In this document: piece after piece, positions 1 to 12,052 of the stretch
Position numbering within the stretch: the first letter of the stretch is position 1
Layout: the number at the start of each line of letters is the position of its first letter
Assembly (NCBI GenBank): GCA_023487825.1
Contig: JAMDBP010000018.1
Span: forward strand, 1-12,052
Source of the DNA: Candidatus Martarchaeota archaeon
GTDB lineage: Archaea; Micrarchaeota; Micrarchaeia; Micrarchaeales; CABMGC01
Reading direction: 5' to 3'
Length of the DNA stretch: 12,052 bases
Program-made: the position numbers and the translations under genes
Notes under the pieces: generated by a model
What the model saw: the letters and a program-made list of their open reading frames with translations, nothing else
Databases searched by the model: none
Told to the model about the DNA's origin: nothing

Positions 1-807
1 ACGCTGCGTATTATCTGTCCTTGCTTTTTTATGTGATTTGTATTTGTTCAATGTCCATGTTATTCCGTCAATAATAAAAATAGGCGTTTCCAACATAAGA
101 ATAATTCCTCCGGCAACTCCAAATATATCTAACAATCCATTTTCATTACTCTCTTTATTATATCTCTGTGAATCTTGCGAATACTTAAGCGAAACTTTAT
201 TGCTCCTAATATCTCTATGTGCAATTTCATAAATCATCTGTGATTTTTGTATGAAAGTACTTGAAAGTGCTTTGGCAGATGTCTTGTTTACATTTGCATT
301 ACCGAAATTGTCCATCTCACTTTCTCCTCCCAATCTAATATATGTATACGCCAAGTTCATCTCATCTACAGCAAGATTGTTATTTTCTGCCTTTGCCTTT
401 TCCGAAGCAACGTATAAAAACTGAGTGGCATTTCTAAAATGATCATATTTGAGATCACGAATTGCTGTAAAAACATACGGTCCAATATTCTGGTCATAAA
501 GTAACGGATAAAGTATTTTATACTCGGTACTTGCAATAAGCCCGTTATTTTCGGATAATGATAAGTTAACAGCGTCTGATGTATAAGACGTTCTGATAAA
601 ATTATCCTCTCCTCTCTTCGCCTTGATTACGTTATCAACTAAAGGATTTACGTAATCTTTATTTGCACTATACTGTACTGCACTCTGTTCTGTCCTTACT
701 TCTAATTGCAGAGGCTGTCTTTCAGAAGCATTACAATTAACTGCTGCACTAGCTATCACTGCTCCTGCTAACACTGCGATTGTCTTATTTTTCAGTTTCT
801 TATCCAT
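1..807 (-). CDS. Secreted/membrane-anchored protein of unknown function (3' end beyond window)
   Basis: An open minus-strand frame of 269 codons runs without a stop to base 1, so the C-terminus is missing. Residues 1-8 (MDKKLKNK) are basic and are followed by a hydrophobic stretch to about residue 22, as in a signal peptide. The middle is polar and mostly helical in character. A second hydrophobic segment lies at about 226-253, followed by a basic tail (KYKSHKKAR). This suggests an exported domain anchored near its C-terminus. The family is not recognised. In-frame ATGs also exist at 828, 864, 897 and 918. I chose 807 because it begins directly before the signal-peptide-like segment and lies about 29 bp from a TATA-like box. 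The gene is more AT-rich than its neighbours and uses TTA/CTT leucine codons freely, so it may have a different origin or weaker constraint. A cysteine near residue 25 is not in a good lipobox. Confidence 0.72.
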   Translation of the reverse strand, partial: MDKKLKNKTIAVLAGAVIASAAVNCNASERQPLQLEVRTEQSAVQYSANKDYVNPLVDNVIKAKRGEDNFIRTSYTSDAVNLSLSENNGLIASTEYKILYPLLYDQNIGPYVFTAIRDLKYDHFRNATQFLYVASEKAKAENNNLAVDEMNLAYTYIRLGGESEMDNFGNANVNKTSAKALSSTFIQKSQMIYEIAHRDIRSNKVSLKYSQDSQRYNKESNENGLLDIFGVAGGIILMLETPIFIIDGITWTLNKYKSHKKARTDNTQR

Positions 808-830
808 ATTCCCAATTGAATTATGCATTT

Positions 831-842
831 CTTTATATTTAA
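831..842 (-). promoter_or_regulatory. TATA box for the left-edge minus-strand gene
   Basis: Read on the minus strand the sequence is TTAAATATAAAG. It is centred about 29 bp before the ATG at 807, which would place transcription start only a few bases before that codon, as in leaderless archaeal genes. The call rests on position and sequence only. Confidence 0.5.
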
Positions 843-865
843 TGATTACTGCTGAATAAGGCATG

Positions 866-875
866 TTTTTATAAG
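866..875 (+). promoter_or_regulatory. TATA box for the 896 gene
   Basis: TTTTTATAAG is centred about 26 bp before the ATG at 896, the spacing expected for a leaderless archaeal transcript. It lies back to back with the minus-strand box at 831-842, so the 88-bp gap appears to be a divergent promoter region. Confidence 0.55.
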
Positions 876-895
876 CTGACTGCATATCTTTAATC

Positions 896-1978
896 ATGCT
901 GTGGCTTCTGGGACTCATGCACCTTGTGCTGTCGCTTGGGGACGTAGACGCACTGATACCAATAATTATAATACTCATACTAATAGCTGCGGCAGGAGGG
1001 CTTACAAGAGGCTTTGATATATTCAGTTTATTCGGTCTTGGCACACTTGCAGGCATAGGACTTGGCAGCAGGGGATCCATGGCAAAAAGAACAGCATATG
1101 ATAAAAGCAGCAGTCAGTATAAGGAAGGTTTCGTATCTGGCTCTAATGAAGGTAATACACATCTTCCTGTAGGCAGGGAAGGGAAATTAACTAAATCAGA
1201 TAAATTCAAGGCAATGGGTTCTATCAGAGGTGCAAAGTATGGGAATACTCCAAAGTCCTCTAGTCTTATTGCAGGTGCATATCACTCTTATCATGCACTT
1301 TCAGGTAAGGCTAAGGCAGGAACCTCCAATCCTAGCAGAGATCTTATACCAGGTCCAAACGTATTAACTAAAGGCGCAGCTATAGATTCTTCTCCACTTG
1401 TGATATCAAAAGCTGCAGTGATAGGCGCAGGCGCAATGACTGTCAAACAGATGAATGATCATATAGCAAACAGGGTAAGGATGGCAGTACTAAATCCTGA
1501 AAAATACGGGCCTAAAAAAAGAACAGTTGAGCAGCCTTCTTATTCTGGTAAACCAAATACTCTTCCATTCTCAAGCACTGATAACGCGGTCGGATGGCTA
1601 CTCTCCGGACGCAGCGGAGCTGCGCTAAAAACATCCCGTATGCGACAACTAGCTGCAAATGATCCTAAGGCATTTAGAAAGGAGTATAATAAAATAGTAA
1701 GAAGAGAACTATACAGGCACATGGTCAATAACAAAATGATAGAAAAAGGATCCTCTTTCAGGATGCCTAGTGACAAAGAGCGTATGAAAATGAGATATTC
1801 CAAGACTATATCTAAAGAATGGTACAGTGGATTTAAAGGGCAGATTGAAAAAACCCGTAATACTCCCTCAAAAATAAGCGTAAATATGCCTGGGATAAAA
1901 TTATCTAAAGATTCTGAGGGATTTAAGGGAAGCATATTAGGGAAGAAGTTTCCTGCCAAAAAGAAAGAGAAAAAATAG
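896..1978 (+). CDS. Membrane protein with long basic cytoplasmic-type tail, unknown function
   Basis: This 360-residue protein has hydrophobic segments at about residues 1-14, 20-35 and 43-58. The remaining 300 residues are polar, rich in Lys, Arg, Ser and Gly, with no cysteine, and end in a lysine cluster (KKFPAKKKEKK). By the positive-inside rule the tail is probably cytoplasmic, where it could contact nucleic acid or the acidic face of a partner. I do not recognise the family. The start is supported by a TATA box 26 bp upstream and no Shine-Dalgarno, giving a leaderless mRNA; Met8 at 917 is a possible alternative. It precedes the VirB4-like genes on the same strand with a 60-bp gap, so it may be part of that system, perhaps as a channel or adaptor subunit. 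That role is inferred from position alone. Confidence 0.8.
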   Translation: MLWLLGLMHLVLSLGDVDALIPIIIILILIAAAGGLTRGFDIFSLFGLGTLAGIGLGSRGSMAKRTAYDKSSSQYKEGFVSGSNEGNTHLPVGREGKLTKSDKFKAMGSIRGAKYGNTPKSSSLIAGAYHSYHALSGKAKAGTSNPSRDLIPGPNVLTKGAAIDSSPLVISKAAVIGAGAMTVKQMNDHIANRVRMAVLNPEKYGPKKRTVEQPSYSGKPNTLPFSSTDNAVGWLLSGRSGAALKTSRMRQLAANDPKAFRKEYNKIVRRELYRHMVNNKMIEKGSSFRMPSDKERMKMRYSKTISKEWYSGFKGQIEKTRNTPSKISVNMPGIKLSKDSEGFKGSILGKKFPAKKKEKK

Positions 1979-1998
1979 CATTTACTACATGCAAATGG

Positions 1999-2006
1999 TT
2001 TATTAA
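1999..2006 (+). promoter_or_regulatory. Possible TATA box for the 2039 gene
   Basis: TTTATTAA is centred about 36 bp before the TTG start at 2039 and would give a leader of about 10 bases. A second AT-rich string at 2019-2026 is too close to the start to serve. Read-through from the 896 gene is also possible. Confidence 0.3.
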
Positions 2007-2038
2007 GTTGACCTATTATTTTATATCAGGTAATCTGG

Positions 2039-2860
2039 TTGAACAAGAACTTTTCTTTTCTGATATTCTTGGGCCTGCTTTCAGGATCTTTCATATGCGC
2101 AGTAATAATCGGCATACTGCCTCCGGGATATGGGATAGTTGCAATAATCCTGGCGATAATAGGGCTTCTTTTGGATGTAATCGCCGCATCTGCCAGGTTC
2201 TATTCATACTATTTTGTTCCGTTTATCAAGCGCAAGAACAATGTGGTTACGCTTAGCAATGAGCCACCATTCTACATGACAGCTTCAGGAAATGCAATAA
2301 TAGTAAAAGAGGAAGATAATACTTATGCGAGTGTCTTTGTAAAGATACCTGTCTATCTGTCTTCAACGGAGATGTCTGACGAAGAGAAGCTCAATTTTGC
2401 AAGATCCTTTTCAAAGATGATAACCGTTAACAGCAGATACCCGATGAAACTTGCATCGCAGCTCTATTACCTTAACAAGGATGAATACATACGAAGGATA
2501 AGTGCAAAGCTGAATGAGGTTGAAGATAAGTACGACAAACTAAAAGCTGATAAGACCACTCCTGACAAACTTCTGGAGCGCGTAGAAGGGGAGTTGGCTA
2601 TGTGGCACAACCTCTTTGACGGAGTTAACAAGTCATCTTCGCAGAATCAGATGGCATATGCTATGATAAGTGCTCCTGGTGCGAACGAAGAAGAAGCCGT
2701 GGCGATAGCCATGCAGCGTGCTGAGGAGGTTGCAGCAGGAGCAGGATCAATCTTCGGCGTGACTGCAAGCATAGCTACTGGAGAGGAAATGCTGGTATTT
2801 GTAGAGCCGGAATACAGCATACCTCCTGCAACTATCAGCGAGCTTCTTAAGAAGGGATGA
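2039..2860 (+). CDS. Two-helix membrane protein, PrgI-like with VirB4 N-terminal-domain-like region
   Basis: The protein has 273 residues. Two membrane helices lie at about 5-27 and 32-52, joined by a short PPGY turn, and are followed by a basic stop (FIKRKNN). The soluble part, about 95-256, shows the pattern of the VirB4/TraC N-terminal domain: a YPMK strand after a helix, a DEYIRR helix, a long charged helical hairpin (about 155-195), a strand (MAYAMIS), then a helix and a final GEEM turn. PrgI-type helices and a VirB4 N-domain commonly occur in type IV secretion loci. The assignment is from pattern and context, not from a search. The start is TTG at 2039; no in-frame ATG occurs before residue 80, and a later start would remove both helices. 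Its last four bases overlap the start of its paralogue at 2857, so the two are translationally coupled and probably act together as the membrane base for the ATPase. Confidence 0.75.
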   Translation: MNKNFSFLIFLGLLSGSFICAVIIGILPPGYGIVAIILAIIGLLLDVIAASARFYSYYFVPFIKRKNNVVTLSNEPPFYMTASGNAIIVKEEDNTYASVFVKIPVYLSSTEMSDEEKLNFARSFSKMITVNSRYPMKLASQLYYLNKDEYIRRISAKLNEVEDKYDKLKADKTTPDKLLERVEGELAMWHNLFDGVNKSSSQNQMAYAMISAPGANEEEAVAIAMQRAEEVAAGAGSIFGVTASIATGEEMLVFVEPEYSIPPATISELLKKG

Positions 2861-3687
2861 GCATGGACGAAGAGACAATATTCAGGGTTGGAATCACATC
2901 GATACTTGCATTGATGTTCGCATCGTTCAGTGCAGCTTATGGTCCGTTGGACATAATTGCAATAATATTCTTTCTAGCTGCATTCATTCTGATAATGATT
3001 ATAAGTTTTGCAGACTTCTTAATATTCCCTATATTCACAAAACTCCTCAAGGTCAGTACAATTCCTGCAAGGGATTACACGATTCCGAAAGAAAATGATG
3101 GTATAGTAAAGTATGTAAATGGCCTTTATTATGCAACCGGATATCTTACTGCCAACGTCTATAACTACGTCTTCCAGGCCGAGCAGATGGTAGAGGGGGA
3201 GGAGAGTGAGATGGTGATGGGGCCTGATAAGTGGGAGAAAGCAGTAATGAGCGTAAAATTCCCATTCAAGTTCATAGCGATAGGGCAGGCTGTAGACATA
3301 CAGAAGTACAGGGATGATCTGGAAGGAAGAAGGGCATATCTGGAATTCCAATACTCAAAAAGCGAGAGCGCTCCTAACGTCTCAACATCGGTGCTTGAAG
3401 ACTTAAAGAGGAGAATGAGAGTGCTTCAGGTAAGGATAGACAGGCTTGGCGCAGGGGAGCGGCCTCTTAGCAGCATGATGTACATAGAGACAACAGCAGT
3501 AGGAATAACAATGAATGATGCAATGAGCAAACTTACACAGCAGACAGAACAGTTGCAAACGGTATTCAATGTATTTGACCTTGACCTGATAAGGGTAGTA
3601 GGAAGAGAGATGTATAGCCTTTACAAGCTCAATTATTACGTACCGGCTATGGAAGAGATTATATCATCATTCCAGTTCCAAAAATGA
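2857..3687 (+). CDS. Two-helix membrane protein, paralogue of the preceding PrgI/VirB4-N-like protein
   Basis: This 276-residue protein has the same architecture and length as its upstream neighbour. Membrane helices lie at about 7-27 and 32-60, followed by a soluble domain at about 96-262. The two proteins align almost without gaps: FPFK (135-138) matches YPMK, the helix with KYRDDL (150-155) matches DEYIRR, the charged hairpin matches, SSMMYIE (205-211) matches QMAYAMIS, and GREM (249-252) matches GEEM. Overall identity is low, so the duplication is old. The start overlaps the preceding stop as ATGA; Met3 at 2863 is an alternative. I infer that the pair forms a heteromeric, membrane-anchored equivalent of the VirB4 N-terminal domain, onto which the ATPase encoded next would dock. 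Confidence 0.75.
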   Translation: MSMDEETIFRVGITSILALMFASFSAAYGPLDIIAIIFFLAAFILIMIISFADFLIFPIFTKLLKVSTIPARDYTIPKENDGIVKYVNGLYYATGYLTANVYNYVFQAEQMVEGEESEMVMGPDKWEKAVMSVKFPFKFIAIGQAVDIQKYRDDLEGRRAYLEFQYSKSESAPNVSTSVLEDLKRRMRVLQVRIDRLGAGERPLSSMMYIETTAVGITMNDAMSKLTQQTEQLQTVFNVFDLDLIRVVGREMYSLYKLNYYVPAMEEIISSFQFQK

Positions 3688-3689
3688 TA

Positions 3690-3703
3690 AATAAATAATA
3701 TGT
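3690..3703 (+). promoter_or_regulatory. Possible internal TATA box before the ATPase gene
   Basis: An AT-rich string (AATAAATAATAT core) in the 41-bp gap is centred about 32 bp before the ATG at 3729, so the ATPase may have its own promoter as well as operon read-through. TGTGA at 3718-3722 is a weak Shine-Dalgarno 6-7 bases before the start. An in-frame TGA at 3720-3722 rules out an earlier start. Confidence 0.3.
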
Positions 3704-3728
3704 CCGAACAATGTTTATGTGAACGATT

Positions 3729-5234
3729 ATGGGATTAATAAGGATACAAAATGTAATGAGCAATGAACTTGCAAAGCGAGTCTTCCTTAGCAGACCTCCA
3801 GAGCCTCCGCCAGAATTCCTTCTCAATGATCCCACTGATTCTATATTCATAGGAATAACAAGAAGGTTTGGCGTACCGCTTACATGGACGTTTGCCACTC
3901 TTACAAATCCTCACATATCGGTAGTGGGAATAACAGGAGCCGGAAAATCCTTCTTCGTAAAGACCTTCCTTATACGTGCCAGCTATGTATGGAACGCAAA
4001 TGCGATAATAATAGACTGGGCAGGAGAGTACAAATCATGGGTAGCGCAGAGCGGAGGGAAGATTGTCGCACTTGGAAAGGGGGACTTCATAAATATAATG
4101 GATCTTGCAGGCATGAAGCCTTTGGACAGGGCAAAGCAGATAATGAATGCGCTTGATATACTGACAGATATCACAAGCTTCGCAGAGCAGAGAAGACTTA
4201 CAGCAGAGGCTATAGAACAGACCTACGTCAACGCAGGCTTCCCTCTTACTCAGATCCCAAAGGATGGGAAGGATGCTCCTACTCTAAAGAACGTTACCGC
4301 GCTGCTTGAGGAGAAGCTTGGTGAAGGTAATTACGCATATCCTGCCGAGCTTGAGAATGCGATATACAGGCTAAGAGAGTTCTCAAGGGAGGGAGAAGAC
4401 TACTTTGCAAGGAAGAGTACAGTCGATCTTGACAAACTCATCACATCAGGTCTTGTAGACCTTGACCTTTCCGGTCTTCCAGATGAGAGATTCAGGGCGC
4501 TTGCAGGGCTATTCATACTGCAGACACTGAAGGAGAAGATGCGCTTTGAGGGATGGAGTCCTAGCAAGGGGCTAAAAGCAATAATAGTGCTTGACGAGGC
4601 ATGGAAGATAGCCAGCGATGAAAGGAGCGATGCGATTACTATAATAAGAGAGGGAAGAAAGTATCAGTTCGGTCTCATAGTTGCATCGCAGAACCCTACG
4701 GATATAAACGAAGCCATATTCTCAAACGTAGGCACATCAATAATACTGAGGATAAGGTTCGAGAAGTTCCTCGACTACCTGCAGGGATCACTTGGCTTCA
4801 CGGCTTTCATGAGGGATGAGATAAGCAGGTTCGGGGTAGGGCAGGCTGCCATAGACCTATCATTCCAGACCTCTATAAAATTCCCATCAGTATTCATAAT
4901 AGAGCATATAGTCGGTGAAATGCCGCTTAATGTCTATGCCATAACTCTGGGTGACGTTCTCCAGGAAAGTGAGACAAATGACACTAACCTACAGAAGGAC
5001 TACTATCTGAAGAAAATGGATATAACTGCAAAACTGGTAAGGACAAATGCCAGCATCGATACGATAAACAGCATAATATTTGACATGGACAAGGCAAACA
5101 GATCAGTAGATGTGAAAAACATGGTAGCAATACTCGCCAAAAACAACATAAACCGCGAAGCCATAATACAATTCTTAAGGGAAGTCGGAGTACCTGATAA
5201 CATTATAAGCAGAGTGTTCATATATACAAGATGA
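3729..5234 (+). CDS. VirB4/HerA-family ring ATPase lacking the VirB4 N-terminal domain
   Basis: This 501-residue protein is an ATPase of the FtsK-HerA-VirB4 class, which forms hexameric rings that power DNA or protein movement through membrane complexes. Walker A is GITGAGKS at residues 67-74. Walker B is IIVLDEA with D289 and E290. The family's glutamine sensor motif is ASQNP at 319-323. After Walker A comes IIDWAGEY, the usual VirB4/HerA strand with an acidic residue, followed by an all-helical insertion (about 130-240). Only about 60 residues precede Walker A, whereas canonical VirB4 has several hundred, so the N-terminal domain is absent. The two upstream membrane proteins appear to supply it. 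The last 70 residues (about 431-497) form a helical module repeated in the next gene. There is no membrane helix, so it would be a cytoplasmic protein. HerA of the HerA-NurA repair pair is an alternative, but no NurA gene is nearby and HerA's N-terminal barrel is not evident. Confidence 0.88.
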   Translation: MGLIRIQNVMSNELAKRVFLSRPPEPPPEFLLNDPTDSIFIGITRRFGVPLTWTFATLTNPHISVVGITGAGKSFFVKTFLIRASYVWNANAIIIDWAGEYKSWVAQSGGKIVALGKGDFINIMDLAGMKPLDRAKQIMNALDILTDITSFAEQRRLTAEAIEQTYVNAGFPLTQIPKDGKDAPTLKNVTALLEEKLGEGNYAYPAELENAIYRLREFSREGEDYFARKSTVDLDKLITSGLVDLDLSGLPDERFRALAGLFILQTLKEKMRFEGWSPSKGLKAIIVLDEAWKIASDERSDAITIIREGRKYQFGLIVASQNPTDINEAIFSNVGTSIILRIRFEKFLDYLQGSLGFTAFMRDEISRFGVGQAAIDLSFQTSIKFPSVFIIEHIVGEMPLNVYAITLGDVLQESETNDTNLQKDYYLKKMDITAKLVRTNASIDTINSIIFDMDKANRSVDVKNMVAILAKNNINREAIIQFLREVGVPDNIISRVFIYTR

Positions 5235-5238
5235 GTGC

Positions 5239-5538
5239 ATGGCAGGGACATATATAATAAACAAGATAGAACTGAAGCGCATACTAAACTCATTCGGGGT
5301 TAACATACGAAGCGTTGAGGGCATGCTCGGTACACTTGACAAGATGCACAAGAATGTCAACGCGATAGAGTTTGCAAAGATGCTCTTTGGGCTTGGGTTG
5401 AAACAGGTTCAGGTAGAGACGATACTAAGAAGAATAGGCGTAGACGACCTGGCAATATCTGACATATTTGACAGGATAGACGAAGACAAGATACACCAGT
5501 CATTCGGAAGGGTTGTGGAGCTTAGTGTTGATATATAA
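5239..5538 (+). CDS. Small helical protein repeating the C-terminal module of the ATPase
   Basis: The protein has 99 residues, starts four bases after the ATPase stop, and has no membrane helix or cysteine. Residues 11-77 align with ATPase residues 431-497 without a gap. Identities include I23, D34, K35, V40, L49, L63, R64, G67, V68, D70, I73, S74 and F77, and many other positions are similar. The shared signature is an ILRRIGVDDLAISDIF-like segment (62-77) matching FLREVGVPDNIISRVF. I infer that a domain was duplicated and now occurs both fused to and separate from the motor. The free copy could compete with, cap or bridge the motor's C-terminal domain. No named family is recognised. It is tightly packed between the ATPase and the zinc-ribbon gene, so it is surely co-transcribed with them. 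Confidence 0.82.
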   Translation: MAGTYIINKIELKRILNSFGVNIRSVEGMLGTLDKMHKNVNAIEFAKMLFGLGLKQVQVETILRRIGVDDLAISDIFDRIDEDKIHQSFGRVVELSVDI

Positions 5539-5539
5539 A

Positions 5540-5544
5540 GGTGG
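5540..5544 (+). promoter_or_regulatory. Ribosome binding site fixing the 5549 start
   Basis: GGTGG lies just before AAATATG and matches the archaeal anti-Shine-Dalgarno. It favours the ATG at 5549 over the in-frame ATG at 5513, which would overlap the preceding gene and add 12 residues before the zinc-binding start. Confidence 0.5.
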
Positions 5545-5548
5545 AAAT

Positions 5549-5929
5549 ATGCCAGGCAGCTACTGTATAATATGCGGCAAGAAGAAGGACGGGATAAAGG
5601 TTGCCGACGATCATGTCCTAAAAACACTCAGGTGGTTCAAGACTAATGTGACAAAGAACGTGCAGAACAATACGCTTGTGGTGTGCAAGACCTGCTATCC
5701 GCAGTACAGCAAGCAGCGCAAGAAGTATGTAAGCAGAAGGACTGCGTATGTGGCTCTAGGCATAATATTCCTTATATTATCAATGATAATATCATCAAGC
5801 GCATGGCTGACTGCATTATCGATAGGGATATTCATAGTGCTACTTCTATATGGATTGTCACTTATCAATTACATGCCGGGTCTGCAACTAAAGGGAACGG
5901 GCAAAAAGGACGGATTGAGGAAGAGATAA
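5549..5929 (+). CDS. Zinc-ribbon protein with two membrane helices, unknown function
   Basis: This 126-residue protein has two CxxC knuckles, C6/C9 (YCIICG) and C46/C49 (VVCKTCY), spaced as in a four-cysteine zinc ribbon or treble clef. A basic linker (KQRKKYVSRR, 55-64) leads to two hydrophobic helices at about 66-82 and 86-106, ending in a short basic tail (KKDGLRKR). The zinc domain and both termini are probably cytoplasmic, with a helical hairpin in the membrane. It could be a membrane adaptor binding a protein or nucleic acid. It starts 10 bases after the preceding stop behind a good Shine-Dalgarno, so it belongs to the ATPase operon. The family is not recognised and a function cannot be assigned. 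Confidence 0.82.
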   Translation: MPGSYCIICGKKKDGIKVADDHVLKTLRWFKTNVTKNVQNNTLVVCKTCYPQYSKQRKKYVSRRTAYVALGIIFLILSMIISSSAWLTALSIGIFIVLLLYGLSLINYMPGLQLKGTGKKDGLRKR

Positions 5930-5935
5930 GTACCC

Positions 5936-5951
5936 TTTTTATTCTTTCATT
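5936..5951 (+). terminator. Possible T-rich terminator after the zinc-ribbon gene
   Basis: Five Ts at 5936-5940 followed by ATTCTTTCATTT occur just after the stop. Pyrimidine/T-rich non-template tracts end transcription in archaea. The signal is short, and read-through into the 5985 gene on the same strand cannot be excluded. Confidence 0.25.
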
Positions 5952-5972
5952 TATCTATAATAAAGTAATAAT

Positions 5973-5977
5973 GGAGG
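5973..5977 (+). promoter_or_regulatory. Ribosome binding site for the TTG-start gene at 5985
   Basis: GGAGG ends seven bases before TTG at 5985. It supports TTG rather than the in-frame ATG at 6003 as the start. An AT-rich string at 5950-5962 (TTATCTATAATA) could be a TATA element, though it would sit close to the start for a transcript carrying this site. Confidence 0.5.
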
Positions 5978-5984
5978 AGTTGTT

Positions 5985-6710
5985 TTGGCTGAAGATACTA
6001 TAATGCTTCCGAAAGTGGAGGAATTGCAGCTTGACGGGAAGCTTAAGACCTCATTCTCAGAGATTAAAGCAAAGCTTTCAAAGCTTCCCTTCTATGATGT
6101 TGGTTCAGATGCCAATTCCGTGACTGCTGCAAAAGTGGAGAGCAGGAACATAGACAAGGCGCCTTATCTGTTTCATATAGTGAAGATAAGCTCTAACAGC
6201 ATAGATGTAAGTTATTCGATAATCCCGGACACAAGCGAAAGCATGCGGAGAGCATATGTTGTAAAGAACCTTGCAGGCATTCTTTCTCTTATAAACAACG
6301 ATTACGAGATTGACGTTCCGAAGTTCATGCAGTATATAGATTCTACACTCGGAAATCTGATAGACGGCATTTCTCAGAACTACAATCTCCTGTACAACAA
6401 ATATGATTCGCTTTCCTCAGAATACAGGGAGATAAAGAGGCTTAACAATGAACTTGAAGCGTCAAACAAGAATATCACAGTCCAGATAACTCAGTTAAGC
6501 GAAGAGAACAAGGAACTTAAAGAGGAGCTGGACAAGCTGAAGAAGTATTCAGACGAAGCGCTCATGGGACTGGTGCAGGAGTGGGTGGAGGTACATGACA
6601 ATTCCATAGATACCGAACAGTTCGCAAAGAACTATGCAGTATCGATACCTAGAGTGGAGCAGATACTTAACAAGATGGTGATGCAGGGCTATCTCGAGGT
6701 AAAGTCATAG
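5985..6710 (+). CDS. Coiled-coil protein with C-terminal winged-helix-like domain
   Basis: The protein has 241 residues and no membrane helix. Residues 1-120 look like an alpha/beta domain, with strands around YLFHIVKIS and SIDVSYSII. Residues about 130-187 form a coiled coil rich in Glu, Lys, Leu and Asn. Residues 190-241 have a winged-helix pattern: helix (ALMGLVQEWVEVH), helix (DTEQFAKNYA), recognition-type helix (IPRVEQILNKMVMQG) and a wing (YLEVKS). A DNA-binding, dimerising or tethering role is plausible. It may link the neighbouring membrane machine to the chromosome or regulate it, but this is inferred. The TTG start is set by an upstream GGAGG. It follows the ATPase cluster on the same strand and is followed after 8 bases by a small basic ORF. 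The family is not recognised. Confidence 0.8.
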   Translation: MAEDTIMLPKVEELQLDGKLKTSFSEIKAKLSKLPFYDVGSDANSVTAAKVESRNIDKAPYLFHIVKISSNSIDVSYSIIPDTSESMRRAYVVKNLAGILSLINNDYEIDVPKFMQYIDSTLGNLIDGISQNYNLLYNKYDSLSSEYREIKRLNNELEASNKNITVQITQLSEENKELKEELDKLKKYSDEALMGLVQEWVEVHDNSIDTEQFAKNYAVSIPRVEQILNKMVMQGYLEVKS

Positions 6711-6718
6711 GTTATCCG

Positions 6719-6865
6719 ATGAGATATAATGTTGTCGTTAAGAGGCGCTTCCAGGATATACGGGTATACAAGATAATAAAACGCATGAATGACAGATCCA
6801 ATAAACTATCAAGAGCCGTAATGAAATTCTTGGAGAAGAAGATGAGCGAGGAAAAGAAAGTATAA
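6719..6865 (+). CDS. Small basic protein, possible ribbon-helix-helix DNA binder
   Basis: This is a 48-codon ORF beginning 8 bases after the preceding stop and ending about 25 bases before the surface-protein gene. About one third of its residues are Lys or Arg. The order is a short strand (YNVVVKRR, 3-10), a helix (about 12-25), an N-x-S-like turn, and a second helix (LSRAVMKFLEKKM, 30-42). That layout resembles the Arc/CopG ribbon-helix-helix fold, where a strand pair from a dimer enters the DNA groove. The codon choices (AGA, AGG, ATA, AAG) match neighbouring genes. Against it are its small size and a weak Shine-Dalgarno (AGGTTA). It may be a local regulator of the operon; this is inference. 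Confidence 0.5.
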   Translation: MRYNVVVKRRFQDIRVYKIIKRMNDRSNKLSRAVMKFLEKKMSEEKKV

Positions 6866-6890
6866 CTGTTTATTTTAGTGGTTAGGTTTG

Positions 6891-9314
6891 ATGAAGAGAA
6901 GGAAGCTGTCCAAGACAGTGGTTATAGGGGTAATCGCGGTAATCTTAATAGCAATAATGGCAGTTATTCTGATAGAAAATGCCATAAGCAGCGCATTAAG
7001 CTCGTACCACCCTCCAGTCCCTGCAGGCAATATTAGCAGCTCATTAAGCATGCAGAATGCGTTTTTCGGTGACTATGCAAATTCAACAGCGTTTGCAGCA
7101 TACGCGAAACTGAATTATAGGGAAACCAATGCCTCGTATGTTAACTTTACATTAAGGGTATTCAAAACAAATCCTATCCCAAAGATATATCTTGTAGACA
7201 CTGACAACTATTGTATAAACTGCTTCCTCGGAGCGACCATGGAGCAGGAACTTCAGCATTATCTGAGCCAGTACGGACTAATACTGAACCAATCGAGTTT
7301 CAACTACATACAGCTTAATAACCTCTCCTCTGTAGCTCCAAATTCAATAATAATAGTGCCTTCAGGACTCATCCCACTGTCCTTCCTTCCGATACAGAAC
7401 AGCTCCCTAAGCGGCTACAATTCCTGCCCGTTAAACTACAACTACAGCATAATAAAGATGTTAAATAATGGAGACACGATATTCTATGTAGGTGACAATT
7501 TCTCAAGAACAGTATCGTGCGGACAGCAGATAATACAAACTCCTCAGAGCATAATAAATCAGCTCTCATCAATTGGTATAGGCACAAGACCTGCAAATGC
7601 CACTGATATAAGAGTGGCAAGGGAGCAGAAATACCTCACATTTAACTCACCGACATTCCTGTTCACAAACGGATACGTTGCGCCAGCATCAACATACGTT
7701 AATGCCTACAATGGAAGCGTAGTCGCACTTAGCAGCTATCCTTCCGAAGGGTGGAAGAACGCATCTGCGCTTTCGAGGGATATAGCTGCACTCATAGACC
7801 TGCACTACTGGAATGACGAGCTGGCATCAGGCAGCACAGGAATTAATATAATAACTAACAAGAGCTCATCAGGACAGATTGCGCTTGTGACAAACACCAC
7901 TCAGGCAAGCATGCAAGATATTACGAACATCTCGTTATCAAGCACATATGTACTGGCAAGCGCATATTTCTATAATTCTGCAGGTCAATTAAGGGAGAAT
8001 AATACACTATTCAGGCTAAACGGACTTGAAAACGGATATTTAGATACGCTGGCAGCGGTACCACAGACTGCAAGCGAATACATAAGTGCTGGTGCTACAA
8101 ACATAACGAGCAATTTTGACTCCTTCCATATCTACATATACAATCTAAGCTATGAAGAGCCGGTGCAGTATCTTTTCATAGGCCAGATGAAGCCGAATGT
8201 GACGTTCATAAAACCAATCTCATTCTCGCTTCCTGGAGGGTATTATATAGCATCACTCATAGACTCCAACAATAATACATACGCGCGTGCAATCTTCAGG
8301 ATATACAATACAAATATAACTACAGCACAGCCATTCTCATTCAGTAACAGGACATTCACATTCTCGCTTCATAGCGGAGGGTATCCACTTACAGGAATTC
8401 CCTATAGTATATCCCTTAACGGACAGTATGTTCAAAACGGCACCGTAAACAACAGCATAATAAAATACTCCTTACCTGGAGGTTCTGTACTTAGCTACGG
8501 GAACGAGACATTTACCGTGAAGGTCTTAGGTGCCACTGATACAATAATAATGCCTTATACCAACTCGATATTTAACATACCTCCTTTATACATAGAGTTC
8601 GCCATAGCAGCAATCGTTATAATCTTATTAAATAAAATACTTGTTCCTCCAAATATAGACAGATACTACATAAACGTGCAGGAATTCAGCCATACTAACA
8701 GGGCAAAGGTTAAAGAGCCTCCAGAGACAATCCTTAAGGTATTTGATCAGGTCAACTATTACTATCACTGGAGATATATGCCATTAACAGCAGAAGAGGT
8801 AAAATCCGGGATATCCGGAAATGTGAGATATGGCAATATGCCAATAGCTGTGACACTGCAGAATACGTATACTGTGTTGAACAGGATGATGAGGAAGGGG
8901 CTCGTGGTTGAGGCTTCAGATTATTATGCGCCCAAGAGCTGGGAGGAAGCATCAAAACATGACATAGAGTATCTTGTAATCTTCCGTAAGCTCAGGGACT
9001 ACAGCGTAGCTAATGCAATGCTCTTCACAGACCTTGATGCTTATGACAATGTGGACATGATGATAACAAACAAGGGAGTGCAGAACTATGTCTACATATA
9101 CTCAAAGCTGTCAGAGAACCAGAAGCTCAGGAACATACCGTTGAGCAAGAATCACAAGACCTTTATCGTCTTCTTGACAGACGAAGACAGACTGGCATTC
9201 ATAGATAGGCTAAATATCTCATATGGAGAGGAGAGCGAGATATTGAGGATGAGCATCGAATCCCTGGATATAAGGCTCATAGATACTGGCGATCTGACAC
9301 AGCTCAAGCTCTAA
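6891..9314 (+). CDS. Large sequon-rich surface protein with cytoplasmic winged-helix-like domain
   Basis: The protein has 807 residues. A basic start (MKRRKLSK) is followed by a membrane helix at 9-28, an external region of about 530 residues, a second helix at about 563-583, and a cytoplasmic part to the end. The external part holds about 25 N-x-S/T sequons; the last 225 residues hold only one. This fits an N-glycosylated exterior and cytoplasmic ends. Residues about 95-230 show strand-helix repeats (IYLVDTD, SIIIVPSG, GDTIFYVGDN) like a Rossmann or glutamine-amidotransferase-like fold, but no catalytic triad is evident. Cysteines 108, 111, 179 and 210 could form disulfides. Later segments are beta-rich. 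Residues about 625-690 resemble a winged helix (LTAEEV...TVLNRMMRKGLVVE). ATG 6891 is preferred to the TTG at 6888; AGGT lies just upstream. It may be the surface-exposed or receptor component of the adjacent machine, an inference from position. Confidence 0.85.
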   Translation: MKRRKLSKTVVIGVIAVILIAIMAVILIENAISSALSSYHPPVPAGNISSSLSMQNAFFGDYANSTAFAAYAKLNYRETNASYVNFTLRVFKTNPIPKIYLVDTDNYCINCFLGATMEQELQHYLSQYGLILNQSSFNYIQLNNLSSVAPNSIIIVPSGLIPLSFLPIQNSSLSGYNSCPLNYNYSIIKMLNNGDTIFYVGDNFSRTVSCGQQIIQTPQSIINQLSSIGIGTRPANATDIRVAREQKYLTFNSPTFLFTNGYVAPASTYVNAYNGSVVALSSYPSEGWKNASALSRDIAALIDLHYWNDELASGSTGINIITNKSSSGQIALVTNTTQASMQDITNISLSSTYVLASAYFYNSAGQLRENNTLFRLNGLENGYLDTLAAVPQTASEYISAGATNITSNFDSFHIYIYNLSYEEPVQYLFIGQMKPNVTFIKPISFSLPGGYYIASLIDSNNNTYARAIFRIYNTNITTAQPFSFSNRTFTFSLHSGGYPLTGIPYSISLNGQYVQNGTVNNSIIKYSLPGGSVLSYGNETFTVKVLGATDTIIMPYTNSIFNIPPLYIEFAIAAIVIILLNKILVPPNIDRYYINVQEFSHTNRAKVKEPPETILKVFDQVNYYYHWRYMPLTAEEVKSGISGNVRYGNMPIAVTLQNTYTVLNRMMRKGLVVEASDYYAPKSWEEASKHDIEYLVIFRKLRDYSVANAMLFTDLDAYDNVDMMITNKGVQNYVYIYSKLSENQKLRNIPLSKNHKTFIVFLTDEDRLAFIDRLNISYGEESEILRMSIESLDIRLIDTGDLTQLKL

Positions 9315-9336
9315 TCTAATCAATGCACTGGAAAGC

Positions 9337-9351
9337 AGATGAAATTCATCT
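9337..9351. repeat. 15-bp palindrome between convergent genes
   Basis: AGATGAA and TTCATCT flank one central A in the 44-bp gap between the surface-protein gene and top6B. The arms match perfectly over 7 bp. A stable hairpin would need a larger loop, so it may be a protein site or a weak bidirectional end signal. No long T tract is present on either strand. Confidence 0.4.
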
Positions 9352-9358
9352 ATGGTAA

Positions 9359-10975
9359 CTACTCTTCAGCAGAATCTTCAGAAGCCTGATCCTCTACCGG
9401 TTCTTCTTCCTCCGGATCTTCCTTTCCCATGTCATATTTGCTCTCTACTATACGCTTAAGGGAGCTCTCTATCTGCTCCTTTTCAACTCCTGTAATATCG
9501 CTAAGGTCGGCAGAAAGCTGACCAACATATCTCATTATTGTCTTGTATCTGGACTCACGCACATGCATGTTCTTCTGTTTGTTTATATGTATCTGGAGCT
9601 TCCTGGCGCACTCCATGATTCCAAGTTTTAGCTCTTCTATTATCTCAGGCTCCTGTGATACCGCCTGCTTTCCTATTCCGTTATAAGGTATATAAACGCT
9701 GGATATGTTGACAAAGACGCTTATAGGCTCATCCCCGAAGTCTCTTATTCCGTATCTCTTCCATTGTATCTGATTTACAGCTTCTGTTATCGCACAGACA
9801 GAGCCGTCGAACAGCAGTGGAACCTTATTTGCAAAACGCATTATAGTCCCCTTTGTACCCTCCTCGGTCTTCTTTCCCGCGTCTCCTCCGTAAGCTATTC
9901 CAGCTTCAACGACAAATGGTATTCCTCCCTTGAATATCTTTGGCTTTCTCTCAGTTACGCTGATAAACTGGGGATTTATTATGTTCAGCATTGCGGTTTC
10001 CATCTGCGCTGCGCCTATGACCGAGAGCGAATCTGTCTCAGGGGCTATCCACTTGACACCCTTAAAAGCATTGACGAGCTTCTCTGCCTCGGGCCACGTT
10101 AATTCACGCGGCTTCTTACCAAAATCGATGTCCTTTGCAATCCCTTTGAGTTCATCTATCTTTGCGGCACTGACTCTTGAGAAGCTCTCCATAAGGAAGG
10201 ACGATATATTGCTATTATCAGTAACATGCGCAAAGTCGAGCAGGTCCCTCGCGCTTATTCCAAGAGGATGCGGTTTGGTCTGCTTTGGCCTTTTCGGCAT
10301 CTCGTTAACTGACCTGGGGAAGACAGTCTCTTTCCCATCCGGCTCAAGAAGTTTTATTGTTGCATGAGGATTTGATAGTGCAGTTCGCTTCACATATTCA
10401 TAGACTCCATGGTCACTCCTCTCATACTTCGTATCTCCAAACTCTCCGCTTACAGATGTGCCCCTGAAGTCCTCAAGCGTTGTCTTCATGTTTGTTATGA
10501 GAGGTTTGTTTGTCTTTATGTCTATTGCGATATCGCACTCAAAGGCACCCTTTCCTGTACCTGATTTTGCATGTATCGGCTTTCCAGTGGTTATTGCCGC
10601 AAAGAGAGTGCATCCTCCGGCCCCTATTCCCTGCTGTCCGCGCTGCTGGAGGTATCTGTGGAACTTTGTTCCTGAAAGTATGCTGGCAAGCGCCTTTCCT
10701 ATATGCTTCTGTGGTATTCCCGGACCATTGTCAGTAACAGTTACCATGTGCCTGTTCTCATTTACCTCTTTGACCTCTACGCTTATCTCAGGGAATATTC
10801 CTGCCTCTTCGCAGGCGTCAAGGGAGTTGGCAACATACTCGTGCACTACTGTAGTAAGGGATCTGACCTTCCCGGAATAACCGAGCATCTGGCTGTTCTT
10901 CCTGAAGAACTGCGTTATCGACTGCTCCTTGAACTCCTTGAATATCTCATCAGCGTTTTTCTCTCCGGTCGCCAT
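9359..10975 (-). CDS. top6B: DNA topoisomerase VI subunit B (type IIB topoisomerase ATPase)
   Basis: This 538-residue subunit binds ATP, dimerises and gates the Top6A cleaving subunit, giving strand passage that relaxes and decatenates DNA. The GHKL (Bergerat) motifs are intact: N-box HEYVANSLDA with E46, N50 and D53; G1 box DNGPGIP at 82-88; and G2 box GQQGIGAGG at 113-121. A helix-two-turn-helix region follows at about 235-285 (from PHPLGISARDLLDFA), then the transducer domain to about 500 and an acidic tail (DPEEEEPVEDQ onward). Length and order match archaeal Top6B. I start it at ATG 10975, four bases after the KH stop; a GTG at 10987 would overlap that gene by 8 bases and add only four residues. 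It is co-transcribed with the KH gene. Top6A, often adjacent in archaea, is not in this window, because the next gene is convergent. Confidence 0.96.
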   Translation of the reverse strand: MATGEKNADEIFKEFKEQSITQFFRKNSQMLGYSGKVRSLTTVVHEYVANSLDACEEAGIFPEISVEVKEVNENRHMVTVTDNGPGIPQKHIGKALASILSGTKFHRYLQQRGQQGIGAGGCTLFAAITTGKPIHAKSGTGKGAFECDIAIDIKTNKPLITNMKTTLEDFRGTSVSGEFGDTKYERSDHGVYEYVKRTALSNPHATIKLLEPDGKETVFPRSVNEMPKRPKQTKPHPLGISARDLLDFAHVTDNSNISSFLMESFSRVSAAKIDELKGIAKDIDFGKKPRELTWPEAEKLVNAFKGVKWIAPETDSLSVIGAAQMETAMLNIINPQFISVTERKPKIFKGGIPFVVEAGIAYGGDAGKKTEEGTKGTIMRFANKVPLLFDGSVCAITEAVNQIQWKRYGIRDFGDEPISVFVNISSVYIPYNGIGKQAVSQEPEIIEELKLGIMECARKLQIHINKQKNMHVRESRYKTIMRYVGQLSADLSDITGVEKEQIESSLKRIVESKYDMGKEDPEEEEPVEDQASEDSAEE

Positions 10976-10979
10976 AAAA

Positions 10980-11477
10980 TTACACACTCTTTAGCTTTCT
11001 CCTTTCCTTTTCCATCACCGCATAAGCCGTGCTGTGCTTTCCTCCGTCAAGCAGTATGTTTATGCCTGCCTTTGCGATTCTTATTTCATCTATATTGCCT
11101 ATAAGGCTTATGGTATCTCCGTATATCTCTATTGCAGCTCCGCTCACTTCTTCCATATAAATCTTTGCCTTGCCATCAGTGCCTATTATCCTTGCAATCA
11201 TCCTCTTCTTCTTTACCTTATTGGATGCTATGTCCCCAACATCTATGCTTTCGAAGAAGAAGTCTTCGTTCAGCAGCTTAAAAGCGGTATTCAGCTTGAA
11301 GCCTCGCGCTATCGCCTGAATAATGCCCTTTGCAGCATATTCTGCGTATGCGTCCCCATCTATTGTGACCTCGTTCTTGCCCTCAATAATTATCTTGCAC
11401 TCCAATCTCTTCTCTATAGTGGCAATTGCGTCTTTCAATGCGTGGACTCTTGCCGCAGGTATGAGTATGCGCTCCAT
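10980..11477 (-). CDS. Dim2/Pno1-type KH-domain RNA-binding protein
   Basis: The protein has 165 residues and two KH domains, as in archaeal Dim2/Pno1, which binds 16S rRNA near its 3' end during small-subunit maturation and, in archaea, can bind initiation factor 2. The first KH (about 1-60, MERILIPAARVHALKDAI) lacks a clear GxxG. The linker contains the typical AIARGF and LLNEDFFFESIDV. The second KH (about 91-150) carries RIIGTDGKAK with GxxG at 99-102, then EIYGDTISLIGN. The ATG at 11477 is chosen because a TATA-like box is centred about 33 bp upstream; a GTG at 11486 would lie at or before the predicted transcription start. It leads a two-gene operon with top6B. The recognition is of the family; orthology with Dim2 is very likely. 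Confidence 0.92.
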   Translation of the reverse strand: MERILIPAARVHALKDAIATIEKRLECKIIIEGKNEVTIDGDAYAEYAAKGIIQAIARGFKLNTAFKLLNEDFFFESIDVGDIASNKVKKKRMIARIIGTDGKAKIYMEEVSGAAIEIYGDTISLIGNIDEIRIAKAGINILLDGGKHSTAYAVMEKERRKLKSV

Positions 11478-11506
11478 TGTAAACACGGTGAATGTGCAGC
11501 CTTTAC

Positions 11507-11513
11507 TTAATAA
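11507..11513 (-). promoter_or_regulatory. TATA box for the KH-top6B operon
   Basis: On the minus strand the core is TTATTAA, preceded by CAAAG, which resembles a purine-rich BRE. It is centred about 33 bp before the ATG at 11477 and predicts a leader of roughly 7 bases. Confidence 0.5.
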
Positions 11514-11588
11514 CTTTGCGCTGGAAAGCCTGTAATGGCTCTACAAAGCAGATATTTATGCACCAGGATCAGGACATGTACAATTTCA

Positions 11589-11645
11589 CTGCATATTTCT
11601 TCATGCAGCACATGTTCCGACGTGAACAAGTAATCGGAAGTTCCA
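11589..11645. repeat. Cluster of short inverted repeats in the divergent intergenic region
   Basis: The roughly 280-bp gap between the KH gene and the right-edge gene holds several dyads: CTGCAT/ATGCAG at 11589-11608; TGTTC/GAACA at 11613-11628; TTCCGA/TCGGAA at 11615-11639; and GGAA-N-TTCC at 11637-11645. Each is short and they overlap. They may be regulator sites or chance. No tRNA or credible ORF was found in this gap. Confidence 0.3.
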
Positions 11646-11660
11646 ACTCTTTCAGTAAGG

Positions 11661-11670
11661 TTTAAATATC
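11661..11670 (+). promoter_or_regulatory. TATA box for the right-edge gene
   Basis: TTTAAATATC, preceded by GTAAGG, is a strong archaeal TATA candidate and predicts transcription start near 11691. A second AT-rich element (TTATTTTATA, 11671-11680) follows it. The predicted start falls inside the TCATGA array, so a protein bound there should block initiation. Confidence 0.6.
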
Positions 11671-11683
11671 TTATTTTATACAT

Positions 11684-11733
11684 TCATGATTGAATCATGA
11701 TTCATTCTGAAATAGTTCATGAATCTTTCATGA
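11684..11733 (+). promoter_or_regulatory. Helically phased array of TCATGA palindromes (putative operator)
   Basis: TCATGA occurs at 11684, 11695, 11717 and 11728, with spacings of 11, 22 and 11 bp. The empty grid position at 11706 holds a degenerate copy (TCTGAA). The flanks agree too, giving a rough consensus NTTCATGATT. Two larger perfect palindromes are nested in it: 11684-11700 (8-bp arms around one G) and 11691-11704 (14 bp). All sites face the same side of the helix and overlap the predicted transcription start, as expected for cooperative binding of a dimeric repressor. The binder is unknown; autoregulation by the adjacent gene is possible. Confidence 0.65.
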
Positions 11734-11756
11734 TACAATTGCGAGCTGTGTTGGGT

Positions 11757-12052
11757 ATGGATACAAACAAACAAATCACAGAAGAGATTAATAAACTTAG
11801 GGAGGAGATCCGCTTACTTTCGGAAAAGAAGGAATCCGACCAGGGAGCAGGTATGATCGCACTTATAAAGTATGTTACAGAGGAGAGGGAGAGGACGGAG
11901 AAACTGCTAATGACAATGGCAGAGAAGATAAGAAGGATGGAGAGCAGGCAGCAGTTGGGGGTACAGGAACATGTGCCTGCTCAGGATAATGCTAAAGGAA
12001 AGAACTTCGAAGAGATTGCACTATCAGATACTGACAGAAGGATAATAGACTT
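11757..12052 (+). CDS. Coiled-coil protein, likely DNA-binding regulator (3' end beyond window)
   Basis: An open frame of 98 full codons reaches the right edge. Residues 1-65 are a charged coiled coil (EEINKLREEIRLLSEKK; TEERERTEKLLMTMAEKI). After a polar linker comes an LSDTDRRIIDF segment, the kind of sequence that often opens a helix-turn-helix in archaeal regulators, but the remainder lies outside the window. Codon use is typical of the window from ATG 11757 onward. In-frame ATGs at 11730 and 11697 would extend it into the palindrome array with unlike codon use. ATG 11697 would fit a leaderless start about 32 bp from the TATA box, so the start is uncertain. Its placement behind a phased operator suggests a self-regulating transcription factor, which is an inference. 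Confidence 0.65.
   Translation, partial: MDTNKQITEEINKLREEIRLLSEKKESDQGAGMIALIKYVTEERERTEKLLMTMAEKIRRMESRQQLGVQEHVPAQDNAKGKNFEEIALSDTDRRIID

Follow-up and report, generated by a model that had tools for sequence, protein, structure and literature searches.

The motor VirB4 is the hallmark of type IV secretion. The stretch of DNA analysed here, below called the window, consists of 12,052 nt (positions 1–12,052) of contig JAMDBP010000018.1 of Candidatus Martarchaeota archaeon (assembly GCA_023487825.1), and it carries three consecutive genes that together resemble a VirB4 cut in two, with the first half present twice. The open reading frames (ORFs) of these genes were read from the window on the plus strand, and transmembrane (TM) segments were located by hydropathy. 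The first gene, N1 (2039..2860, plus strand), has a TTG start and encodes 273 amino acids (aa), including two TM helices and a soluble domain like the N-domain of VirB4. The second, N2 (2857..3687, plus strand), encodes a 276-aa protein, a paralogue of N1. The third (3729..5234, plus strand) encodes a 501-aa ATPase, a motor of the VirB4/CedB/CedD type without an N-domain and with a C-terminal extension. All three ORFs lie where an earlier note on this DNA had placed them. The ATG of N2 at 2857 overlaps the stop codon of N1, and most of the relatives inspected begin at the next ATG, 2863, which is probably the true start.

The TM segments occupy matching sites in the two N proteins (residues 8–26 and 32–50 in N1, 8–26 and 33–51 in N2), each with a soluble domain, so that the common layout described in the earlier note was found again. 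When the two families were compared with hhalign, 264 columns were aligned with a probability of 95.7 (E 9.7e-9). The nearly gapless alignment claimed previously thus stands at the profile level; aligned directly, the two sequences are 19% identical and 6% of the alignment is gaps (E 0.012, calculated for a single comparison). The hidden Markov models of the two families also match each other's proteins in many loci. Taken from the hhalign result and the tree presented below, N2 is a paralogue of N1.

The ATPase has a Walker A motif GITGAGKS starting from residue 67, a Walker B motif IIVLDE at 285 and SQNP at 320. The motifs that the earlier note had listed are thus present, with 66 residues (about 60 in the note) ahead of Walker A. 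Among the 92 full-length ATPases of the fetched loci, Walker A and Walker B were present in all 92 and SQ[NSTD]P in 90, the two remaining proteins carrying SQHP, and the Walker A motif began between residues 67 and 120 (median 67). Pfam identified DUF87 (1.5e-13), AAA_10 (8.2e-12) and P-loop_TraG (2.7e-10), all over the cut-offs. The closest named families were CedD (5.8e-19), CedB (8e-18) and TraC (5.9e-15), all far below their cut-offs (68.2 bits against 600 for CedD and 64.4 against 700 for CedB), and also the full-length VirB4 family TIGR00929 scored only 29.4 bits against the required 643.1. The match of the ATPase starts at position 251 of CedB and position 223 of CedD, so that the cut falls in the linker joining the N-domain to the motor. 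Of the solved structures, HerA-type helicases matched the ATPase best, and the VirB4 domain 4ag5 was also found. A tblastn search against plasmids gave 62 records, all with less than 60% identity and none covering 80% of the query.

Conservation was studied in 81 loci with two N genes, consisting of the window and 80 fetched loci, the best 80 of the 82 found with the N2 family. The presence of N2 in the 80 fetched loci follows from the selection; that of N1 was not selected for. The titles of 78 of the 80 name Micrarchaeota, Micrarchaeaceae or Marsarchaeota, the other two being 'uncultured archaeon' (L022) and 'bacterium' (L044). N1 and N2 have the same order and strand in 81/81 loci, and their pairing is thus not due to chance. 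An ATPase ORF is situated downstream of N2, at a distance of up to ca. 1.9 kb, in 75/81 loci, and the three-gene order suggested earlier for checking is largely conserved. Consequently N-domain and motor, which form one polypeptide in VirB4, are encoded by separate genes in the window and in 75/81 loci. Damage to an ordinary VirB4 gene by a frameshift or a sequencing error, for which no support was found, would hardly give the same gene borders in 75 of the 81 loci, nor place the N-domain and the ATPase on different ORFs in 10 of the 12 second loci treated below, and its probability is negligible. Two of the six loci lacking an ATPase, L020 and L052, end at N2 or about 160 bases past it. In L080 the N2 family match is split over two overlapping ORFs. 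In L043 (12358-20811) and L044 (12405-20813) the place of the ATPase is taken by a minus-strand ORF and then, up to where the stretch ends, an ORF of more than 2,800 aa.

The model predicted for N1 was compared with the PDB using Foldseek, and the 12 best matches were all TrwK/VirB4. The VIA alignment placed N1 onto residues 219–380 and 218–379 of TrwK in two entries, and N2 loosely within residues 44–385. Predicted models and hydropathy together place two TM helices beside a VirB4 N-domain. N1 is accordingly predicted to take the VirB4 N-domain fold, while for N2 the same fold may be inferred from its paralogy with N1. With this difference between the two proteins, the central proposal of the earlier note, a split VirB4 made of two membrane-anchored N paralogues and an ATPase-only motor, was supported. 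The possibility that N1 and N2 each correspond to a different half of the VirB4 N-domain, as has been reported for CedB and CedD, was not supported, since N1 aligns with the TrwK region from 219 to 380 and N2 only loosely within a wider one.

The N2-family profile matched 174 of the 196 genomes of the phylum used in the profile searches. The named homologues belong to Micrarchaeota, their kin or an uncultured archaeon (among the matches listed: 28; 120 of 177; 120 of 337; most of them unnamed). A set of 20 loci fetched from deeper lineages showed one recognisable N gene before the ATPase in 15 loci and two in five. The N gene of one of the 15, L093, runs off the contig end, so that a second copy is possible there. 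The single N genes score on both models (94–136 bits with N1, 130–147 bits with N2). A tree was constructed of 64 rows representing 20 of the 81 two-N loci, the five deep pairs and the 15 single genes, with the N2 row of L051 lost because of an over-long ORF. It contains three groups: N1 with the first copies of the deep pairs (98/97), the single genes (98/96), and N2 with the second copies (100/99). Long branches lead to the N1 (1.98) and N2 (1.52) of the window's group. The cheapest reading of this topology would be one tandem duplication with the gene order kept and fast divergence thereafter. As the tree is unrooted and has no outgroup, an older duplication followed by loss is possible, and the single N gene may be either ancestral or derived.

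Upstream of N1, six polytopic proteins are encoded in tandem in 50 of the 80 fetched loci, in some with the first ORF cut. Gene families were formed by single-linkage BLAST clustering, in which these putative channel proteins became family 6. The other 30 loci have 0–5 channel-family ORFs, or eight pieces in L017; most of them are cut by contig or flank ends, and five (L048, L064, L066, L068 and L080) have over 3 kb of upstream sequence with zero channel-family ORFs. The six proteins are mutually homologous, as all 15 profile pairs, computed from 41 complete sets, gave 97.7–99.6%. The CedA profile matched 58/196 genomes (best E 2.7e-8) and, among the 14 control genomes, only Sulfolobus acidocaldarius. 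Considering the N places listed, the best CedA match was on the same strand and at most 10 kb upstream of an N gene in 26 of the 58 genomes. Also the 20 deeper genomes tested all had channel-family matches, 5–18 each. Among the matches listed for single-N genomes, most are on contigs other than that of the N gene. The family-6 ORF of L070 (5405-9118) encodes 1,237 aa and has a long repeat-like region.

Further upstream there is a gene for a VirB2/TrbC-like pilin with two TM segments. PF04956 was over the gathering threshold in two of five proteins (L075 and L076), and across the 196 genomes it was found in 62 at E ≤ 0.001 and in 20 over the cut-off. With our own profile, the pilin was found upstream of the channel genes and on the same strand in 18/20 fetched regions, at least two of these pilins (L144 and L145) being identical to sequences from which the profile had been built. 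Among the 18 is G001, the genome of L001, whose N2 is 96% identical to that of the window. The pilin profile also matches the N-terminus of the second channel protein (E 2.7e-6 in L005). Just upstream of the single N gene, L101 (292-1551) and L098 (8695-9419), from two deeper lineages, carry pilin-like genes in tandem, two or three in number.

Genes resembling VirB2, VirB6 and VirB4 thus occur together, as they would in an ordinary conjugative or integrated element. Such an element is nevertheless very improbable here, given the N2 profile in 174/196 genomes of the phylum, the constant make-up of the operon and its constant neighbour on the chromosome (topoisomerase VI subunit B in 57/81 loci), and the VirD4 coupling ATPase (PF02534), which was found in 5/14 controls and in 0/10 genomes of the phylum tested, with no search aimed at relaxases.

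Twelve further ATPase loci, chosen from the CedB search and not at random, were analysed as second loci. An N gene stands directly before the ATPase in ten of them, and in nine of these ten the N gene is itself preceded by a channel-family gene in the same orientation. In four (L155, L159, L160 and L162) the pilin is directly ahead of the channel gene, forming a compact pilin–channel–N–ATPase cassette. L158 has the N gene and the ATPase with no channel match, and L157 and L161 have the ATPase only. As the second loci repeat the set of pilin, channel, N and ATPase genes, the split VirB4 reappears alongside its usual partner genes. L162 is situated in a two-N genome, and its N gene is much diverged.

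Fused forms were detected as well: the CedB N-part and the motor are joined in single ORFs of 803–1048 aa in G142:C7, G115:C4:514870, G062:C2 and G055:C1:1114361. Going by these ORFs, single-chain VirB4-type proteins coexist with split ones. Matches to the CedB N-part were also seen in free-standing N genes. Two other CedB matches, at G115:C4:650477 (1.7e-8) and G079:C35, were discounted as evidence of an N-domain because each spans the N gene and the ATPase with a stop codon in between. At E ≤ 0.05 the CedB profile matched 10/14 and the CedD profile 12/14 control genomes; since the part matching in these is not shown, they give no separate check of the CedB N-part matches. None of 22 genomes exceeded the cut-off of either CedB or CedD.

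The split, the paralogy, the predicted fold of N1, the conserved operon and the recurring pilin–channel–N–ATPase cassette were all obtained computationally. They are probably best explained by the inner-membrane motor of a reduced, Ced/Ted-like type IV secretion system (T4SS), in which VirB4 has been cut at the interdomain linker and its N-half duplicated in the lineage of the window. Several results weigh against this reading. Four of the 81 loci (L038, L040, L043 and L044) have other ORFs at the expected ATPase site. Both the channel genes and the pilin gene are situated beyond the upstream edge of the window. No Pfam match was obtained for the channel family (six proteins of L030), its profile A5 found nothing among PDB sequences at E ≤ 5, and TrbL (PF04610) gave one weak match (E 0.023) in 12 genomes. 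CedA was over its cut-off in 0 of the 196 genomes, and with the N places listed, the best CedA match was not beside an N gene in 23/58 genomes and was unplaced in nine; all but one (G160) of the 23 have N genes that, like those of the deeper lineages, match the N2 profile with low scores. None of the Foldseek matches of the N1 model reached E 0.001, and the model of N2 itself is weak. The Pfam scan of N1 and N2 gave no match to PrgI, VirB3 or CagE_TrbE_VirB, with PrgI and VirB3 absent even at E ≤ 1, and PrgI and VirB3 were not among the matches listed (25 of 94 families) for the 92 members of alignment A3. The broad N profile A4 matched solely coiled-coil-type chains among PDB sequences.

The Pfam and NCBIfam scans of N1, N2 and the members of alignments A2 and A3 produced scattered weak matches, including CedB in 3/42 (best 0.14) and VirB4_plasma in 1/42 (0.0019) of the A2 members and VirB4_plasma in 2/92 (0.02) of the A3 members. 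The weak N2 model, the missing Pfam matches of N1 and N2, the coiled-coil chains found with A4 and the HerA chains as the best PDB sequence matches of the ATPase would all suit another explanation, in which N1 and N2, as membrane scaffolds built around a helical hairpin, would only look like the VirB4 N-domain, and the ATPase would be a stand-alone HerA-like enzyme. We consider this unlikely, as the 12 best N1 matches are all TrwK, free-standing N genes contain CedB N-part matches, and an N gene directly precedes the ATPase also in 10/12 second loci.

The operon continues downstream of the ATPase, all genes being on the plus strand. A 99-aa protein (5239..5538) is homologous to the C-terminal extension of the ATPase (hhalign 99.0%, E 2.8e-18), and an ORF of 80–135 aa directly follows 80 of 100 ATPase ORFs. 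Judging from sequence, the motor seems modular at both ends. The next genes encode a protein of 138 aa that has paired cysteines and a single TM segment (5513..5929; family 3, 70/81 two-N and 20/20 deeper loci), a 241-aa coiled-coil-like protein (5985..6710; family 4, 63/81 and 20/20) and a membrane protein of 808 aa whose hydrophobic segments flank a large region (6888..9314; family 5, 62/81 and 20/20). Between the channel genes and N1 there is a lineage-specific 360-aa protein (896..1978, plus strand; family 38, seven loci including the window) that begins with two hydrophobic segments and has a long basic tail, and it is uncertain whether this is part of the machine. The topoisomerase VI subunit B gene and a KH-domain gene (9359-11486, minus strand), the latter present in 54/81 loci, did not appear in any of the 20 deeper loci, where the fetched sequence often stops at about that point.

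If the motor is of the Ced/Ted-like kind, the N-half with its VirB3-like TM pair would be made as a separate protein, here as two diverged paralogues. By analogy with the R388 system, N1 and N2 would combine the roles of VirB3 and the VirB4 N-domain, and they may form a membrane-tethered collar seating the ATPase ring. The ring would sit under a channel of VirB6/CedA-like subunits, and ATP hydrolysis would move a substrate through the channel, build a VirB2-like pilus, or both. The N1–N2 hetero-oligomer, its contact with the ATPase, the role of the channel, the substrate and the direction are parts of the model that we infer.

As the substrate, DNA is our first choice, with slightly better than even confidence. 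A Ced-like DNA transporter is favoured over conjugation because the ATPase is kin to CedD and CedB and VirD4 was not found (0/10). The main alternative keeps the same architecture for protein export or a contact pilus only, with no DNA moved, and we hold it to be possible though clearly less likely. There are known T4SSs that lack a VirD4 partner and serve other purposes, PF02534 was absent from 10/10 genomes, and the 808-aa membrane protein could serve contact. The closest motor families, however, are the DNA-import ATPases CedD and CedB, with bacterial TraC close behind. A possible pili-like contact of ARMAN cells to Thermoplasmatales, given in a table citing Baker 2010 (PMC7308576), is in keeping with the protein or pilus alternative and with a DNA transporter alike. 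We also put forward, as a speculation somewhat less probable still, that the inner-membrane rings are obligately mixed, with N1 and N2 at the non-equivalent central and outside positions which bacteria fill with identical VirB4 chains, six VirB6/CedA-like paralogues forming the channel and one bare ATPase driving it, and that taking up DNA from neighbours or hosts is a core trait of Micrarchaeota.

In R388, each protomer has a central and an outside VirB4, which are similar, and PMC9259494 describes the function of the outside subunit as unclear. An N-half encoded on its own, as two diverged copies in one lineage and as a single copy in its relatives, would make this division of labour within VirB4 testable. 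The genes also point to a transfer or contact machine in most of the sampled genomes of a reduced archaeal phylum, in parallel with the T4SS described for Patescibacteria (PMC12102498).

Among the papers listed by our searches of open-licence literature, none dealt with a T4SS or VirB4 of Micrarchaeota in its title or abstract start, and none turned up as a precedent for a motor-less, membrane-anchored, duplicated N-half with a bare ATPase. The giant SPEARE proteins of nanohaloarchaea (VirB4/TraG-type) are likewise DPANN proteins with VirB4-family ATPases proposed to act in a T4SS, but in the second protein there the PF03135 N-domain and the ATPase share one chain (PMC10266531). Similarly, the T4SS of Patescibacteria, with VirB4 in 2,417/3,035 assemblies, is kept by a reduced-genome, host-associated phylum; in contrast to Micrarchaeota its VirB4 is one protein and VirB3/PrgI is separate, and the available part of the paper gives no VirB3–VirB4 fusion in its data set (PMC12102498). 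With TrwK/VirB4 of R388, the window shares the predicted fold of N1 and the type of the ATPase domain. That system has 12 VirB4 as a hexamer of dimers, with VirB8 tails binding the outside VirB4 only, a VirB6 pentamer, and the two TM helices of VirB3 bound to the central VirB4 N-domain (PMC9259494). VirB4 is one chain there, whereas Micrarchaeota join the TM pair to the N-domain and encode the motor on its own.

The Ced system of Sulfolobales (CedA, CedA1, CedB and CedD) has the most in common with the genes described here. Both include a VirB4-type ATPase, that of Micrarchaeota being closest to CedD and CedB; CedA-profile matches, though below the cut-off, adjoin the motor in 26 genomes among the N places listed; and both have a two-TM pilin with kinship to the N-terminus of a channel protein, comparable to the kinship reported for CedA1 and CedA and, less strongly, for VirB2 and VirB6 (PMC9905601). 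In both, two paralogous proteins seem to split the role of the N-domain. CedB and CedD each have TM, N-domain and ATPase in one chain, and each N-domain can be overlaid on a different portion of that of VirB4 (PMC11868833), while in Micrarchaeota the ATPase is separate, the two N-halves have no motor, and six channel paralogues stand in place of CedA and CedE. As no Ced cut-off was reached and the single-chain feature of VirB4 is lacking, the system is placed in the T4SS/Ced kind, with CedB and CedD as its nearest precedent, and would work like Ced without being a member of Ced itself.

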